From Actinomycetospora straminea (GTDB lineage Bacteria; Actinomycetota; Actinomycetes; Mycobacteriales; Pseudonocardiaceae): a DNA stretch of 64,000 bases. The position numbers and the translations under genes were made by a program. Location of the stretch: the NCBI RefSeq assembly GCF_028737255.1, contig NZ_JAQZAN010000001.1:372001-436000 (forward strand), in the 5' to 3' direction. Shown piece after piece: positions 32,039 to 38,127 of the stretch. Every line of letters starts with the position of its first letter. Position 1 is the stretch's first letter. The notes beneath the pieces are model-generated. The model made no database searches, was not told where the DNA came from, and was given only the letters and a program-made list of their open reading frames with translations.

Positions 32039-34561
32039 TCAGAGCTTCGTCAGCGGCACGCCGCCGATGAGCATCAGCCGCACGGTGCCCGAGGAGCCGA
32101 AGTCGATGGTGGCCGTGGCCCGCGAGCCGACGCCGTCGACGGTGACCACCGTGCCGAGGCCGTACTTGTCGTGGCTCACCCGGTCGCCGACGTCCAGCGA
32201 GATCGTCGGCGCCTCCTTCCAGTCCGGGCGCATCGGCGAGGGGCGCGAGGCCCGGCCGGACAGGTCGGTGCCGGGGCTCGCCCAGCGCCCGGAGCCGAAG
32301 CGGGTGCGCCCGACCGGCGAGGACCGCTCGGAGCTGGGCTCGACACGGCGCCACTCCCACACGTCGGCGGGCACCTCGTCGAGGAACCGCGACGGCGGGT
32401 TGGCCTGCGGCTGCCCGTACGCCGAGCGCATGACCGCGCGCGAGAGGTAGAGCCGCTGCTGGGCGCGCGTGATGCCGACGTAGGCGAGCCGGCGCTCCTC
32501 GGAGAGCTCGGCGGGGTCGGCGAGCGCCCGCGAGTGCGGGAAGACGCCGTCCTCCCAGCCGGTGGTGAACACGACCGGGAACTCGAGGCCCTTCGCGGTG
32601 TGCAGCGTCATCAGCGTGACCACGCCGTCGCCGCCGTCGGGGATCGAGTCGGCGTCGGCCACCAGCGACACCCGCTCGAGGAACGCCTCGAGCGAGCCCG
32701 GCACGGCCTGGCCGTCGGTGCCCTCGGCCTGCTCCACCGTCTGTTCCCCGGCGGCGTCCTCGACGCCCTCGGCGTTGAGCGCGTCCTGCACGAACTCGCG
32801 CGCGACGCTGACGAGCTCCTGCAGGTTCTCCAGCCGCGACTGCTCCTGTGGGTCCTCCGAGCCCTCGAGCTCGGCCCGGTAGCCCGAGCGGTCGAGGATC
32901 GCCTCGAGCACCTCGTCGACCGACGTGCCCTCGGCGACCAGCCCGGCGAGACCGTCGAGCATCTCGACGAAGTCGGCGATGTTGCGCTGCGAGCGCGTCG
33001 CCAGCCCGTGGACCTCGCCCGCGGCGGCCCGGCGCAGCGCGGCGGCGAAGGTGATGCGCTCGCGGTCGGCCGCGTCGGCGACCACCGACTCCGCACGGTC
33101 GCCGATGCCCCGCTTCGGCACGTTGAGGATGCGGCGCAGGGAGACCGTGTCCTCGGGGTTCGAGAGCACCTTGAGGTAGGCCATCGCGTCGCGGACCTCG
33201 CGGCGCTCGTAGAAGCGCACGCCGCCGACGATCTTGTACGGCAGCCCGAGGCGGATGAACACGTCCTCGAACACCCGCGACTGACCGTTGGTCCGGTAGA
33301 AGACCGCGACCTCGCCGAAGCGCGCCTCGCCCGCGTCGACCAGCCGGTCGATCTCGGCGGCGACGAACGCCGCCTCGTCGTGCTCGTTGTCGGCGACGTA
33401 GCCGACCACCAGCTCGCCGTCGCCCGCGTCGGTCCACAGCCGCTTGTCGCGACGGTCCGGGTTGCGGCTGATGACGGCGTTGGCGGCCGTGAGGATGCGC
33501 TGGGTGGAGCGGTAGTTCTGCTCGAGCAGGATGGTGCGCGCCTCGGGGTAGTCGCGCTCGAACTCGACGATGTTGCGGATGGTGGCGCCGCGGAAGGCGT
33601 AGATCGACTGGTCGGCGTCGCCCACCACGCACAGCTCGGCCGGGGGCACCGCGCCGTCCTCGCTGCCCGCCGCCAGGGCCCGGACCAGCATGTACTGCGC
33701 GTGGTTGGTGTCCTGGTACTCGTCGACCAGGATGTGCCGGAACCGGCGCCGGTAGTACTCGGCGACGTCGGGGAAGCGGGTCAGCAGGTCGACGGTGCGA
33801 CCGATGAGGTCGTCGAAGTCGAGCGAGTTCGACTGCTGCAGCCGCTGCTGGTAGACGGCGTAGACCTCGGCCGTGCGCTTCTCCGCCTCGGTGGCCGCGG
33901 CGTCGGCGGCCTCGATGGGCGAGACGAGCTCGTTCTTCCACGCCGAGATCCGGGCGAGCAGCCCGCGCGGCGAGTACTTCTTGGCGTCCAGGTCGAGCCC
34001 GCGCGCCACCGACGCGACGAGCCGCCGCGAGTCGTCGGCGTCGTAGATGGAGAACGTGGAGCTCAGCTCGAGGTGGCGGTACTCGCGGCGCAGGATGCGC
34101 ACGCACATCGAGTGGAACGTCGACACCCACATCGCGTTCGCCCGGCGACCCACCAGCGCGGCCACGCGCTCGCGCATCTCGGCGGCGGCCTTGTTGGTGA
34201 ACGTGATGGCCATGACCTGGCCCGGCCCGACGCCCTGGTGGCGCATCTGCCAGGCGATCCGGTGGGTGAGCACCCGCGTCTTGCCCGATCCGGCGCCGGC
34301 GACGATGAGCAGCGGCGACCCGGTGTGCACCACCGCCTCGCGCTGCGGGGGGTTCATGCCCTCGAGCAGCGGGTCGTCCGCCGGGTCGGGACGGTCGGTG
34401 TCGCGGCGCAGCGCGGCGCCGGCCCCCGCGTCGTCGCCGCCCGCGGCGGCCGCGGCCAGCCGCCGGGACAGGGCGGACGCCGCCGAACGCACGGGCGGGC
34501 CCGACCCGACGTCTGACGTGGTGTCGGACGCGGCGTGGCGGGTGGCGGGACCGGTGCTCAT
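32039..34561 (-). CDS. pcrA: ATP-dependent DNA helicase UvrD1/PcrA
   Basis: An 840-residue superfamily 1A 3'-5' helicase used in nucleotide excision repair and replication restart. Motif I is AGAGSGKT at residues 88-95, motif Ia ITFTNKAAAEMRER, motif II VDEYQDTN, motif III GDADQSIYAFRGA, motif IV QNYRSTQRIL, motif V LMTLHTAKGLEFPVVF and motif VI RRLAYVGITRAQQRL. A ~65-residue disordered N-terminal extension precedes the core. The C-terminal ~60 residues (DVGDRVSHDKYGLGTVVTVDGVG) form the Tudor-like RNA-polymerase-binding domain of UvrD1. ATG 34561 is the first good start. It is convergent with the M23 gene and divergent from the chorismate mutase leader. Confidence 0.97.
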   Translation of the reverse strand: MSTGPATRHAASDTTSDVGSGPPVRSAASALSRRLAAAAAGGDDAGAGAALRRDTDRPDPADDPLLEGMNPPQREAVVHTGSPLLIVAGAGSGKTRVLTHRIAWQMRHQGVGPGQVMAITFTNKAAAEMRERVAALVGRRANAMWVSTFHSMCVRILRREYRHLELSSTFSIYDADDSRRLVASVARGLDLDAKKYSPRGLLARISAWKNELVSPIEAADAAATEAEKRTAEVYAVYQQRLQQSNSLDFDDLIGRTVDLLTRFPDVAEYYRRRFRHILVDEYQDTNHAQYMLVRALAAGSEDGAVPPAELCVVGDADQSIYAFRGATIRNIVEFERDYPEARTILLEQNYRSTQRILTAANAVISRNPDRRDKRLWTDAGDGELVVGYVADNEHDEAAFVAAEIDRLVDAGEARFGEVAVFYRTNGQSRVFEDVFIRLGLPYKIVGGVRFYERREVRDAMAYLKVLSNPEDTVSLRRILNVPKRGIGDRAESVVADAADRERITFAAALRRAAAGEVHGLATRSQRNIADFVEMLDGLAGLVAEGTSVDEVLEAILDRSGYRAELEGSEDPQEQSRLENLQELVSVAREFVQDALNAEGVEDAAGEQTVEQAEGTDGQAVPGSLEAFLERVSLVADADSIPDGGDGVVTLMTLHTAKGLEFPVVFTTGWEDGVFPHSRALADPAELSEERRLAYVGITRAQQRLYLSRAVMRSAYGQPQANPPSRFLDEVPADVWEWRRVEPSSERSSPVGRTRFGSGRWASPGTDLSGRASRPSPMRPDWKEAPTISLDVGDRVSHDKYGLGTVVTVDGVGSRATATIDFGSSGTVRLMLIGGVPLTKL

Positions 34562-34660
34562 CGTCGGTCCACGCTACCGGGGCCCTCCGACAGTCGCGGC
34601 GGCGTGGCGGCCCGGGGAGGTCCACCGGGCGGCCGTTTGGTCGCACGCCGCGCCGATGGC

Positions 34661-34735
34661 ATGATGACCGCCGTGCGCGCGCAGTTTCGTCGATTTTTCT
34701 ACGGGTACCGGACCCCGGTGCCCGTGGTCAGCTGA
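34661..34735 (+). CDS. Aromatic leader peptide of the chorismate mutase transcript
   Basis: A 24-codon open frame, too short for routine gene calls, translating to MMTAVRAQFRRFFYGYRTP then VPVVS and a TGA at 34733. Within ten codons it has three Phe (TTT 34685, TTT 34694, TTC 34697) and two Tyr (TAC 34700, TAC 34706). Two of the Phe codons are TTT, which should be rare in this GC-rich genome. The run lies exactly where a stalled ribosome would mask strand 1 of the downstream attenuator, so its job is probably to sense charged tRNA-Phe and tRNA-Tyr. ATG 34664 is an alternative start. No strong Shine-Dalgarno is visible, and a leaderless transcript is possible. Confidence 0.7.
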   Translation: MMTAVRAQFRRFFYGYRTPVPVVS

Positions 34736-34785
34736 CGCGCCCGCCGCGCTGCCACGCCGCCCCGGAGTCCACGGACCCCGGGGCG
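34703..34785 (+). promoter_or_regulatory. Ribosome-mediated transcription attenuator before the chorismate mutase gene
   Basis: Three mutually exclusive structures. Hairpin 1:2: GGGTACCGG (34703-34711) pairs with CCGGTGCCC (34715-34723). Antiterminator 2:3: GGACCCCGG (34710-34718) pairs with CCGGAGTCC (34762-34770, one mismatch), CGTGG (34723-34727) with CCACG (34752-34756), and CAGC (34729-34732) with GCTG (34748-34751). Terminator 3:4: CGCCCCGG (34758-34765) with CCGGGGCG (34778-34785), extended by GTCC (34767-34770) and GGAC (34773-34776), followed by TTCTCGT. Stalling on the Phe/Tyr codons would free strand 2 for antitermination; normal translation to the stop would cover strand 2 and let the terminator form. 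No experimental evidence is available. Confidence 0.78.
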
Positions 34786-34857
34786 TTCTCGTGTCCGGGG
34801 TCGCGAGGGCCCACCGACCCGGGAACCACCCGGACACACCCTGGAGGCCGATCCCCC

Positions 34858-35220
34858 GTGAGTGCCGCGACCAGCTCCACCGACAGCCCTACCGACAGCG
34901 CCGCCGACGCCGGGTCCGAGGACGCATCCCCCGCGTCCACCGACGCGCCGGCCCCGCTCGCCCCGGCCACCGCCGACGAGATCCCCTCGCTGCGCGAGGA
35001 GATCGACGCGATCGACGCCGAGCTGCTGCGCCTCGTCAAGCGCCGCTCGGAGATCTCGCAGCGGATCGGGCTGGCGCGGATGGCCGCCGGCGGGCCCCGG
35101 ATCGTCTACAACCGCGAGATGCAGGTCCTCGCCCGGTTCCGCGACCTCGGGACCGAGGGCCGGGAGCTCGCCATGCTGCTGCTGCGTCTCGGGCGCGGGC
35201 GGCTGGGCGGTCGGGCCTGA
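34858..35220 (+). CDS. aroQ: Chorismate mutase, AroQ delta type
   Basis: A 120-residue protein with a ~38-residue Ser/Ala/Thr/Asp-rich leader, then the short AroQ-delta domain: SLREEIDAIDAELLRLVKRRSEISQRIGLARMAAGGPRIVYNREMQVLARFRDLG. Conserved Arg of helix 1, RRxEIxxRIGxARM with its catalytic-loop Arg, and RIVYNREM match the intracellular chorismate mutase Rv0948c of M. tuberculosis, which is nearly inactive until complexed with DAHP synthase. It makes prephenate for Phe and Tyr. GTG 34858 is preceded by GGAGG. The gene lies directly downstream of the Phe/Tyr attenuator, which fits end-product control. It is divergent from pcrA as in mycobacteria. Confidence 0.88.
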   Translation: MSAATSSTDSPTDSAADAGSEDASPASTDAPAPLAPATADEIPSLREEIDAIDAELLRLVKRRSEISQRIGLARMAAGGPRIVYNREMQVLARFRDLGTEGRELAMLLLRLGRGRLGGRA

Positions 35221-35865: not shown

Positions 35866-38127
35866 ATGGACGAGCGTGGTGGCCGGCACGCGTGGTTCGA
35901 CGAGCCCGCCGAGGTCACGGGCACCCTGGTCGCCCCGCCGACCGTCCCTCCGCCCGCCCTGCCCGGTGGTGGTCCGGGCGCCGACGACCGACTCGCGGAG
36001 GGCGTAACGCCGGGCGAGGTACCGATCGATCTGGTTCCCGTGCCCCGACGTCCGGTCGACGACCTGCCGCCCGTACCGCACCAGGACGAGGCCCGTCACA
36101 CCGACGGTGTCCCGGTGACCGAGCTCCTCGCGCGCCTCACCGCCTCCGCCCGCCGCGTCCGCGAGGCCGAGCGCGGCGAGGCCGTGCCGGAGCCCCGCTC
36201 CGCGCCGCCGACGACCCTTACCGACGACGCCACGCGCGACGAGCGGCGGCCCGCCCTGACCCCGGTCGCGACCCCGGACAGCACCCACGCCACCGCCACC
36301 GGCTCCACCGAGCTCGACGCGGCCCTGGCCTTCGCCGCCGCGCTGGAGGCGGCCGAGGCCGCCGAGGCGGCCGGCACGACCACGGCGGGGCCCGCTCCCG
36401 CCGGGGCCCGGCCCGACGGCCCCGTCTCCGACCTCGGCGCGGCGCGCGCGGCGGCGGCCGCCGACCTGCGGGCCTTCGTCCGCCAGGGCGACACCGGCCC
36501 CGCTCTCGTGCGCCCGCTGCCCACCCCCGGGCGGTCGGCGCGCCGGCGCACGAACCCGTTCCGCCGCACGAACACCCGGACGTTCGGCGCCACCACGGGC
36601 GCCCTGCTCGTGGCCGGCACCGTCGCGAGCATCGCCGGCCTGCCCCTGCCGGGCCTGCCCGTCGAGGAGGCGCCGTCGCCCGGCGGCCCGGTCGCGCTCC
36701 CGCCCGGGGCGGGCATCGTCCCGGTTCTGCCCGGCACGCCGGGCGCGATCCCGGGCGTCGTCCTGGGCCCCGACGGCCTGCCCCTCGGCACCGGCATCAC
36801 GCTGAGCGCCGCGGCCTCCGACCTGGGCCTGGGCCTCGGCGCGCCCGGCGGCGCGGCCGTCGCGGGCGGCGGGCTCGCCGGCGTCGACGGCCCCCTCACC
36901 GCGGCGCCGGGGGGCGTGGGCGGTGTGGCCCCGCCCGGCGGCGGTGGCGGCGTCGTCCCCGGGGGCCCCGGCGCCCCGGGTGTCCCCGTCGGGCCCGGCA
37001 CCCCGGGCGCACCCGTCGGGGGCGACGGCGGTGGCGGTGGCGGCGTCATCGGTCCCTTGGTCGACGGAGCCGGCGAGGTCATCGGCGGGACCGGCGGCGT
37101 GGTCGGCGGAGCCGTGGGCGGCGTCGGCGACACGGTCGGCAACGCCACCGACGGCCTCGGCACCACGGTCTCCGGCGCCGGGCGCACCGTCGAGACGCTG
37201 GCCGACGGGCTCGACACCACGGTCACCGGCGTCACCGACGGCCTCGGCACCACCGTGGGCGGGGTCGGCGGCGTGCTCGACGGCCTGCTCGGCGGCGAGA
37301 CGCCGGCCCCGACGCGCCCCCCGGGCCTCGTCGGCACCGTCGGCGTCGTCGTCGACGGCACCACCGGCCGGCTCGGCGGCCCCCTGCCCGGCCCGCTCGG
37401 CGGGCCGGTCACCGGCCTCGGCGGCACGGTGAACAGCACGCTGCGCTCGCTCGAGTCGCAGGTCGCGGACCCGGCGGTCGGTACCGTCACCGGAGGCGTC
37501 CGCGACGCCGGCGCGACCGTCGGCAGCACGGTCCGCTCGGCGAACCACGACGTCGTCGGCCCCCTCGCCGGCACCGTGTCCGGCGCCGTGGGCGACACCG
37601 GCACGACGGCCGCCACCACCCTGCGCGCCACCGCGGCCGACGTCGTCGCCCCCGCCGGCGAGACCCTCACCGACACCCTCGACGCGGTCGGGGACGCCAC
37701 CGGCGGGTCGACCCCACCGCTGGTCGAGGACACCGCGGACACCGTCGAGGGGGTCTCCTCGACCGTCGAGGAGACCGTCGAGGAGACCGGCGACGCGGTG
37801 GGGGACACCACGGACGAGGTCGAGGAGACCGTCGAGGACACCGCGGACACCGTCGGGTCGGTGGTCGACACGACCGGCGACACCGTCGAGGACACGACCG
37901 ACGCGGTGGGTGACGGCGTCGAGGGGCTGCTCGGGCTCAGCGGGGACGCCAGCGGGGACGACGCCAGCGGCGACGACGGGGCCGCCGGCGACAGCGGAGA
38001 CGACGGGGCCTCCAGCGCCGGCAGCAGCAGCGGCAGCAGTGCCGGGAGCAGCAGCGACGACGCCGCGGACGAGGGCAGCAGCGCCGACACCGGCGACGGC
38101 GGCAGCTCCGGCGACGGCGACGACTGA
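35866..38127 (+). CDS. Long Gly/Thr/Asp-rich membrane-anchored repeat protein
   Basis: A 753-residue hypothetical protein. Residues 1-225 are disordered, Pro/Ala/Glu-rich, ending in an Arg-rich patch (RRRTNPFRRTNTRTF). One hydrophobic segment (ATTGALLVAGTVASIAGLPLP, residues ~243-263) likely anchors it. The outer part runs from Gly/Pro-rich tracts through a region of degenerate ~11-residue repeats with spaced Thr-Val and Gly (DTVGNATDGLGTTVSGAG, ETVEETVEDTADTV) to an Asp/Ser/Gly tail. The Thr-Val-Asp periodicity suggests an amphipathic or apolipoprotein-like helix. Cytoplasmic N-in topology fits the basic patch. ATG 35866 is preceded by GAGGAG. Function is unknown; cell-envelope structural role is a guess from context with a kinase. 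Confidence 0.75.
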   Translation: MDERGGRHAWFDEPAEVTGTLVAPPTVPPPALPGGGPGADDRLAEGVTPGEVPIDLVPVPRRPVDDLPPVPHQDEARHTDGVPVTELLARLTASARRVREAERGEAVPEPRSAPPTTLTDDATRDERRPALTPVATPDSTHATATGSTELDAALAFAAALEAAEAAEAAGTTTAGPAPAGARPDGPVSDLGAARAAAAADLRAFVRQGDTGPALVRPLPTPGRSARRRTNPFRRTNTRTFGATTGALLVAGTVASIAGLPLPGLPVEEAPSPGGPVALPPGAGIVPVLPGTPGAIPGVVLGPDGLPLGTGITLSAAASDLGLGLGAPGGAAVAGGGLAGVDGPLTAAPGGVGGVAPPGGGGGVVPGGPGAPGVPVGPGTPGAPVGGDGGGGGGVIGPLVDGAGEVIGGTGGVVGGAVGGVGDTVGNATDGLGTTVSGAGRTVETLADGLDTTVTGVTDGLGTTVGGVGGVLDGLLGGETPAPTRPPGLVGTVGVVVDGTTGRLGGPLPGPLGGPVTGLGGTVNSTLRSLESQVADPAVGTVTGGVRDAGATVGSTVRSANHDVVGPLAGTVSGAVGDTGTTAATTLRATAADVVAPAGETLTDTLDAVGDATGGSTPPLVEDTADTVEGVSSTVEETVEETGDAVGDTTDEVEETVEDTADTVGSVVDTTGDTVEDTTDAVGDGVEGLLGLSGDASGDDASGDDGAAGDSGDDGASSAGSSSGSSAGSSSDDAADEGSSADTGDGGSSGDGDD

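Follow-up and report, generated by a model that had tools for sequence, protein, structure and literature searches.

The closest described counterpart that we found to the element reported here, a putative transcription attenuator ahead of the chorismate mutase gene aroQ of Actinomycetospora straminea, is the aroR leader of aroF in Corynebacterium glutamicum. There, too, a short Phe/Tyr leader belongs to an attenuator of the aromatic pathway: the available portion of one report describes a Phe-Tyr-Phe leader before aroF (PMC4046766), and that of a review has the aroR attenuator responding to Phe but not Tyr (PMC11802643). The element lies in a 64,000-nucleotide stretch of contig NZ_JAQZAN010000001.1 (positions 372,001 to 436,000), called the window below, in whose coordinates all positions are given. 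The two systems, likened here by description and not by sequence, differ in that aroR precedes a 3-deoxy-D-arabino-heptulosonate 7-phosphate (DAHP) synthase gene and is described in one species, whereas the window element precedes chorismate mutase; in other families, elements related to it do lie upstream of class I DAHP synthase. Neshat et al., in 2014, are said to have described the aroR leader as leaderless. For enteric bacteria, the excerpted review describes a leader with Phe codons, pheL, before the bifunctional chorismate mutase gene pheA (PMC11802643). Compared by description, both arrangements place a leader with Phe codons ahead of chorismate mutase, but the enteric enzyme is a chorismate mutase-prephenate dehydratase fusion. 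The pheL leader is a Phe-only leader and has a ribosome-binding site.

Actinobacterial attenuators for other amino acids and genes share leaderless peptides, hairpins and terminators with the present element. The accessible parts of the respective reports describe such leaderless peptides, with hairpins and terminators, in Streptomyces lividans (eight leader peptides, none of them for Phe or Tyr; PMC8079986), trp, ilvB and leu leaders in Corynebacterium diphtheriae, the ilvB leader being leaderless (PMC5784534), and a codon-dependent ilvB1 attenuator in Mycobacterium tuberculosis (PMC13236596); the leuA, ilvB and trp attenuators differ from the window element in amino acids and genes. A comparative survey of Actinobacteria from 2005 states, in the part available, that conserved RNA structures were not seen upstream of Phe/Tyr operons (PMC1262725). 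No Rfam family reached its cut-off in the window, two matches falling far below it, and the leader peptide matched no usable protein family. The words chorismate, Rv0948, phenylalanine and aroQ are absent from the main text of a 2026 attenuation paper on M. tuberculosis (PMC13236596). No title among the publications naming Rv0948c concerns its leader; the string RFFYGY was not found in the literature searched, and the occurrences of FFYGY are unrelated, judging by titles. The initial annotation of this locus, which had proposed a Phe/Tyr leader peptide and attenuator, knew of no such element before a gene of the Rv0948c type. The literature search likewise returned no description of a chorismate mutase element, with supplementary tables, most subscription papers and preprints outside its scope, and the element may therefore sit unnoticed in a transcriptome table. 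What we judge to be new, from sequence comparison, is an apparent attenuator before chorismate mutase that is widely conserved; the kind of mechanism, ribosome-mediated transcription attenuation, is already known.

We put the probability that the element is a ribosome-mediated transcription attenuator of aroQ at roughly 0.86, its transcription start, stalling, termination and starvation response being predictions. The reading frame provides the first evidence. Among 123 leader loci of relatives, an ATG or GTG stands 6 to 7 bases after the motif [CT]ANNNT in the frame of the aromatic core 114 times, and in the other frames once and never; nine of the 123 have no in-frame start behind the box. 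The core starts 5 to 9 codons past the start codon in 108 of the 114 loci. By the same rule, the window start is GTG 34673, most likely the true leader start, which would give a leaderless peptide of 20 codons. The start at ATG 34661, implied by the 24-codon frame first annotated, was rejected, since this codon lies inside the -10 box (as does part of the ATG at 34664) and is missing from many relatives; the three Phe and two Tyr codons of that frame stand, packed into eight codons. A frame kept 114:1:0 is strong evidence for translation of the leader and for the putative leaderless start.

Conservation was assessed in 257 upstream regions of related chorismate mutase genes, assembled from a first set (34 of its 40 loci, the remote L037-L042 being unused), an order-wide draw, a class-wide draw and four narrower draws; at least four genomes occur twice (G095, G196, G349, G355), and the counts are not fully independent. 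A detector that asks for a leaderless start plus three or more Phe, Tyr or Trp codons within eight codons was positive in 203 of the 257 regions; on their opposite strand it scored 0 of 257. A search for the aromatic core found a leader in 123 of 146 regions from the earlier sets (L066 was dropped as a chance match) and in 103 of 111 from the four narrower draws, where three of the eight misses lie on short contigs. By eye, seven of 20 extra regions have an FFYG- or FTYG-type core with a leaderless start, one has an FFDG core with such a start, two have a core but no -10 box that could be recognised, and ten show none of these, four of the ten being second gene copies and one comprising only 95 bases. 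Relatives thus keep the short frame, the leader and the covarying stems described next, the check that the initial annotation had proposed, and we judge the element to be widespread in actinobacteria as a putative attenuator of the ribosome-mediated type.

The RNA strands of the element (Table 1) were tested for co-adaptation by cutting them at anchors and setting the duplex energy of two strands from one locus against that of strands combined across loci, over 4000 permutations, in 108 loci less than 75% alike from which near-identical loci had been removed beforehand; five loci in which the script detected no hairpin or terminator (L119, L126, L130, L133, L137) were skipped. Hairpin 1 (1:2, z -17.4), the antiterminator (2:3, z -9.6), the terminator (3:4, z -18.8) and a further pairing, 4:5 (z -4.3), were each matched by 0 of the 4000 permutations. 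The six control pairings 1:3, 1:4, 1:5, 2:4, 2:5 and 3:5 gave z from -1.6 to +1.4 in the pooled test, which argues against a general artefact. For 1:2, 2:3, 3:4 and 4:5, respectively, z was -6.7, -5.4, -8.1 and -2.8 in 55 Pseudonocardiaceae loci and -5.1, -3.2, -9.6 and +0.3 in 32 loci of family f3. The windows cut for strands 2 and 3 overlap in 70 of 221 loci; after trimming, 2:3 had z -9.75. In 53 aligned sequences, the same from which the counted structure was derived, two-sided changes were seen in 10 of 19 pairs, and 86.6% of cells were paired, against 4-6 pairs and 32-53% of cells in slid-alignment controls. The plan of the antiterminator recurs, with CCGG of strand 2 facing CCGG of the terminator arm and with CGUGG, CGUCG or CGUAGGUC facing CCACG, CGACG or GACCUACG immediately ahead of the terminator. 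The mutually exclusive pairings 1:2, 2:3 and 3:4 of an attenuator are present, save for 2:3 within family f20 and genus g3 alone, and a terminator-like hairpin occurs in 221 loci.

The structures first annotated in the window largely held. Duplex folding pairs 34715-34732 with 34748-34765, within the longer antiterminator originally drawn, and the terminator hairpin lies where it had been placed. Hairpin 1 is present too, its described start in the last control codon being only rough: its first base is the final one of the third Phe codon, and both Tyr codons lie within it. Control codons 34694-34708 extend into its foot, in strand 1, and the leader stop sits behind strand 2. As a separate observation, strand 5 (34794-34802 in the window, and its equivalents) is co-adapted with strand 4 overall and in Pseudonocardiaceae, and not in f20 (z +1.8) or f3 (z +0.3). 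A "domino" model, in which a 5:6 hairpin shuts the aroQ ribosome-binding site, was unsupported (5:6 z -1.6, 105 loci).

Folding of the window RNA suggests how the strands could work as a switch. As long as strand 4 is missing, a ribosome at the first Tyr codon makes the 2:3 antiterminator the best fold (-25.2 kcal/mol), and without a ribosome the best fold contains hairpin 1; a ribosome on the stop codon allows neither of the two, and the terminator forms next. The RNA would begin at or next to GTG 34673, and a ribosome loading on the bare 5' end would closely follow RNA polymerase while translating the 20 leader codons. At scarcity of charged tRNA-Phe, perhaps of tRNA-Tyr, it would halt at TTT-TTC-TAC-GGG-TAC and cover strand 1; strand 3 would then pair with strand 2 while strand 4 is still to come, no terminator would form and aroQ would be transcribed. 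With charged tRNA plentiful, it would reach the stop at 34733 and cover strand 2, 3:4 would form and transcription would end near 34790. The element probably switches on aromatic amino acid synthesis at Phe/Tyr shortage; Tyr may matter less than Phe, because the related aroR attenuator is said to respond to the latter alone in the available part of the review (PMC11802643).

Several observations weigh against this attenuator. The 2:3 signal is absent inside f20 (22 loci), where 3:4 alone stands out (z -4.7; 1:2 -0.2, 2:3 -0.8), and inside g3 (20 loci; 1:2 -4.2, 2:3 +0.4, 3:4 and 4:5 weak at -1.6 and -1.8, and the control 2:4 at -2.0); these are the two least varied groups, and support for 2:3 therefore rests on differences between and within more varied ones. 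The permutation leaves common descent in. The window has a weak T run, and 46 of 221 loci have only 0-2 T among the nine bases after the hairpin. No leader was found upstream of chorismate mutase in five loci from genera g4, g6 and g7 of family f2 (L065, L066, L069, L080, L084), and the core of some relatives holds just one Phe and one Tyr. After strand 4 has been made, no fold is more stable than the terminator, whether or not strand 1 is covered, which requires a kinetic switch. Known attenuators are generally kinetic switches.

Further evidence comes from a second gene. A covariance model built from chorismate mutase loci only gave one match of 79.8 bits in the window's own genome and eight more at no more than 26.4 bits; a second copy there was rejected, two of the eight being the element's opposite strand and the three that were read (L285, L288, L290) not leader-like. 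In family f18, all ten fetched model matches (L310-L312, L314, L315, L317-L321) lie upstream of class I DAHP synthase. A scan of the class gave a model match in 98 of 148 genomes, which overstates true elements because 20 fetched weak matches comprised 9 DAHP synthase leaders and 11 that were not. Five of the DAHP synthase proteins, one from f18, scored over cut-off for both NF006421 and TIGR01361. The class I enzyme occurs in 103 of 296 genomes searched, and a leaderless aromatic leader in 47 of 90 upstream regions (L342-L431; 13 without a script-recognised start were placed roughly, and two are very short). These leaders come from families f4, f9, f15, f18, f22, f26, f28, f29, f30 and f39, with f18 alone supplying 24 of the 47; family f21 has none in 14 regions (L382, L417-L427, L429-L431). 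The pairings recur as well, 43 of the 47 loci giving z -9.2 for 1:2, -5.5 for 2:3 and -12.0 for 3:4, with controls at -0.9, -1.7 and +1.8.

The codon cluster differs between the two genes. By the same detector, 38 of 47 clusters upstream of DAHP synthase include Trp (examples are MRTAFWFWYGDGP, VARWFFSYYAEPG and MSCNGYYWFTDG), versus 7 of 203 upstream of chorismate mutase; by family, Trp is found in none of the five f28 leaders, 1 of 3 in f30 and 2 of 4 in f39. DAHP synthase feeds the synthesis of Phe, Tyr and Trp, whereas chorismate mutase feeds that of Phe and Tyr only. The control codons thus appear to follow the products of each enzyme, a contrast that favours codon-based sensing. Together with the conserved frame, leader and pairings, it supports the attenuator first proposed from the letters of the window. 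In the window genome, no class I DAHP synthase was matched at the threshold used; a class II enzyme is present. Class II genes were rejected as targets, the detector being positive in 2 of 30 of their upstream regions, with peptides unlike the leader.

Codon choice is also distinctive. Leader cores before chorismate mutase contain 275 TTT and 143 TTC for Phe and 73 TAT and 313 TAC for Tyr, and TTT occupies the Phe position three codons ahead of Gly in 109 of 115. DAHP synthase leaders contain 50 TTT, 33 TTC, 42 TAT and 29 TAC; the counts in DAHP synthase frames (L342-L371, those with a recognised start) are 1, 159, 1 and 117, and the large divergent gene of the window has 0 TTT and 24 TTC. With TTT and TAT nearly unused in the compared genes, sensing employs codons that are otherwise avoided, whether for sensitivity or for open RNA. 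We incline, by a little over even odds, to a broader view: one ancestral leaderless attenuator would govern entry into the aromatic pathway across much of the Actinomycetes, as a gene-switching, codon-retuned cassette with Phe/Tyr codons before chorismate mutase and added Trp codons before the unrelated class I DAHP synthase, its sensors being mainly the avoided TTT, plus TAT before DAHP synthase. The twist lies in this apparent sharing of one switch by two enzymes, its codons matched to the products of each, and the Phe/Tyr versus mostly Phe/Tyr/Trp leaders amount to a natural experiment. High activity of the Rv0948c-type enzyme requires a complex with DAHP synthase, according to the accessible part of one paper (PMC7762937), and no mechanism controlling its expression was found in the literature searched; the element is a concrete, conserved candidate for such control, in a named mycobacterium too (L035), and good material on the coupling of leaderless translation to transcription.

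The strong conservation of the FFYG core, shared in many loci by the YG.R.P.PV tail, could instead mark an arrest peptide, the nascent FFYG stalling the ribosome on a metabolite such as free Phe or prephenate rather than through slow decoding of Phe/Tyr codons. We consider this very improbable: the tail is encoded by hairpin 1, which covaries as RNA, and is frame-shifted behind the core in some loci with the hairpin retained (e.g., L031, L032), the N-terminal part varies freely, and the cluster usually gains Trp before DAHP synthase. About as improbable, in our estimate, is translational control beside or instead of termination, through pairing of strand 5 with strand 4 or near the aroQ ribosome-binding site; the 4:5 signal overall and in Pseudonocardiaceae speaks for it, and in some Actinomycetospora loci strand 5 is, by eye, complementary to sequence near the aroQ start, but 5:6 reaches only z -1.6 overall and 4:5 vanishes in f20 and f3. 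Least credible, and very nearly dismissed, is an element that acts without translation, an operator or structured RNA recognised by a protein or metabolite: CGATTTTTCTACGGGTACCG is conserved, third codon positions included, but the frame holds at 114:1:0 despite a variable number of codons before the core, TTT/TTC and TAT/TAC exchange, no Rfam family reaches cut-off and codon content tracks the enzyme.

Table 1. Features of the putative attenuator and of aroQ, in window coordinates
Feature	Position	Strand	Details and basis
Putative promoter	34637..34665	+	TTGGTC 34637-34642, spacer 17, CATGAT 34660-34665; sequence and boxes of relatives
Leader peptide gene (predicted)	34673..34735	+	GTG start, 20 codons and TGA (34733-34735); product VRAQFRRFFYGYRTPVPVVS
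Control codons	34685..34708	+	Phe TTT 34685, TTT 34694, TTC 34697; Tyr TAC 34700, TAC 34706
Hairpin 1	34699..34727	+	strand 1 34699-34711, strand 2 34715-34727; 1:2 z -17.4, two-sided pair changes
Antiterminator 2:3	34715..34765	+	strand 2 segments 34715-34718, 34720-34721, 34723-34727, 34729-34732
Antiterminator 2:3, strand 3 segments	34748-34756, 34759-34760, 34762-34765	+	z -9.6 (108 loci), -9.75 trimmed
Terminator hairpin 3:4 and T-rich run	34758..34792	+	hairpin 34758-34785, then TTCTCGTGT; z -18.8
Strand 5, complement of strand 4, role unexplained	34794..34802	+	4:5 z -4.3 (108 loci)
Likely aroQ ribosome-binding site GGAGG	34843..34847	+	sequence
Chorismate mutase gene aroQ	34858..35220	+	GTG start, 120 aa; protein family and structure matches

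The AroQ protein scores over cut-off for both NF005894 and TIGR01808, and with 2qbv, the solved Rv0948c enzyme, it gives a match at 8.3e-28; we take it to be of the AroQ-delta type, as initially labelled. The large gene that starts at 34561 and runs in the opposite direction, divergent from the leader and aroQ, was named pcrA in the initial annotation. Shortly downstream of aroQ, an open frame of 753 residues (35866-38127, + strand) contains long, repetitive stretches rich in Gly and Val.
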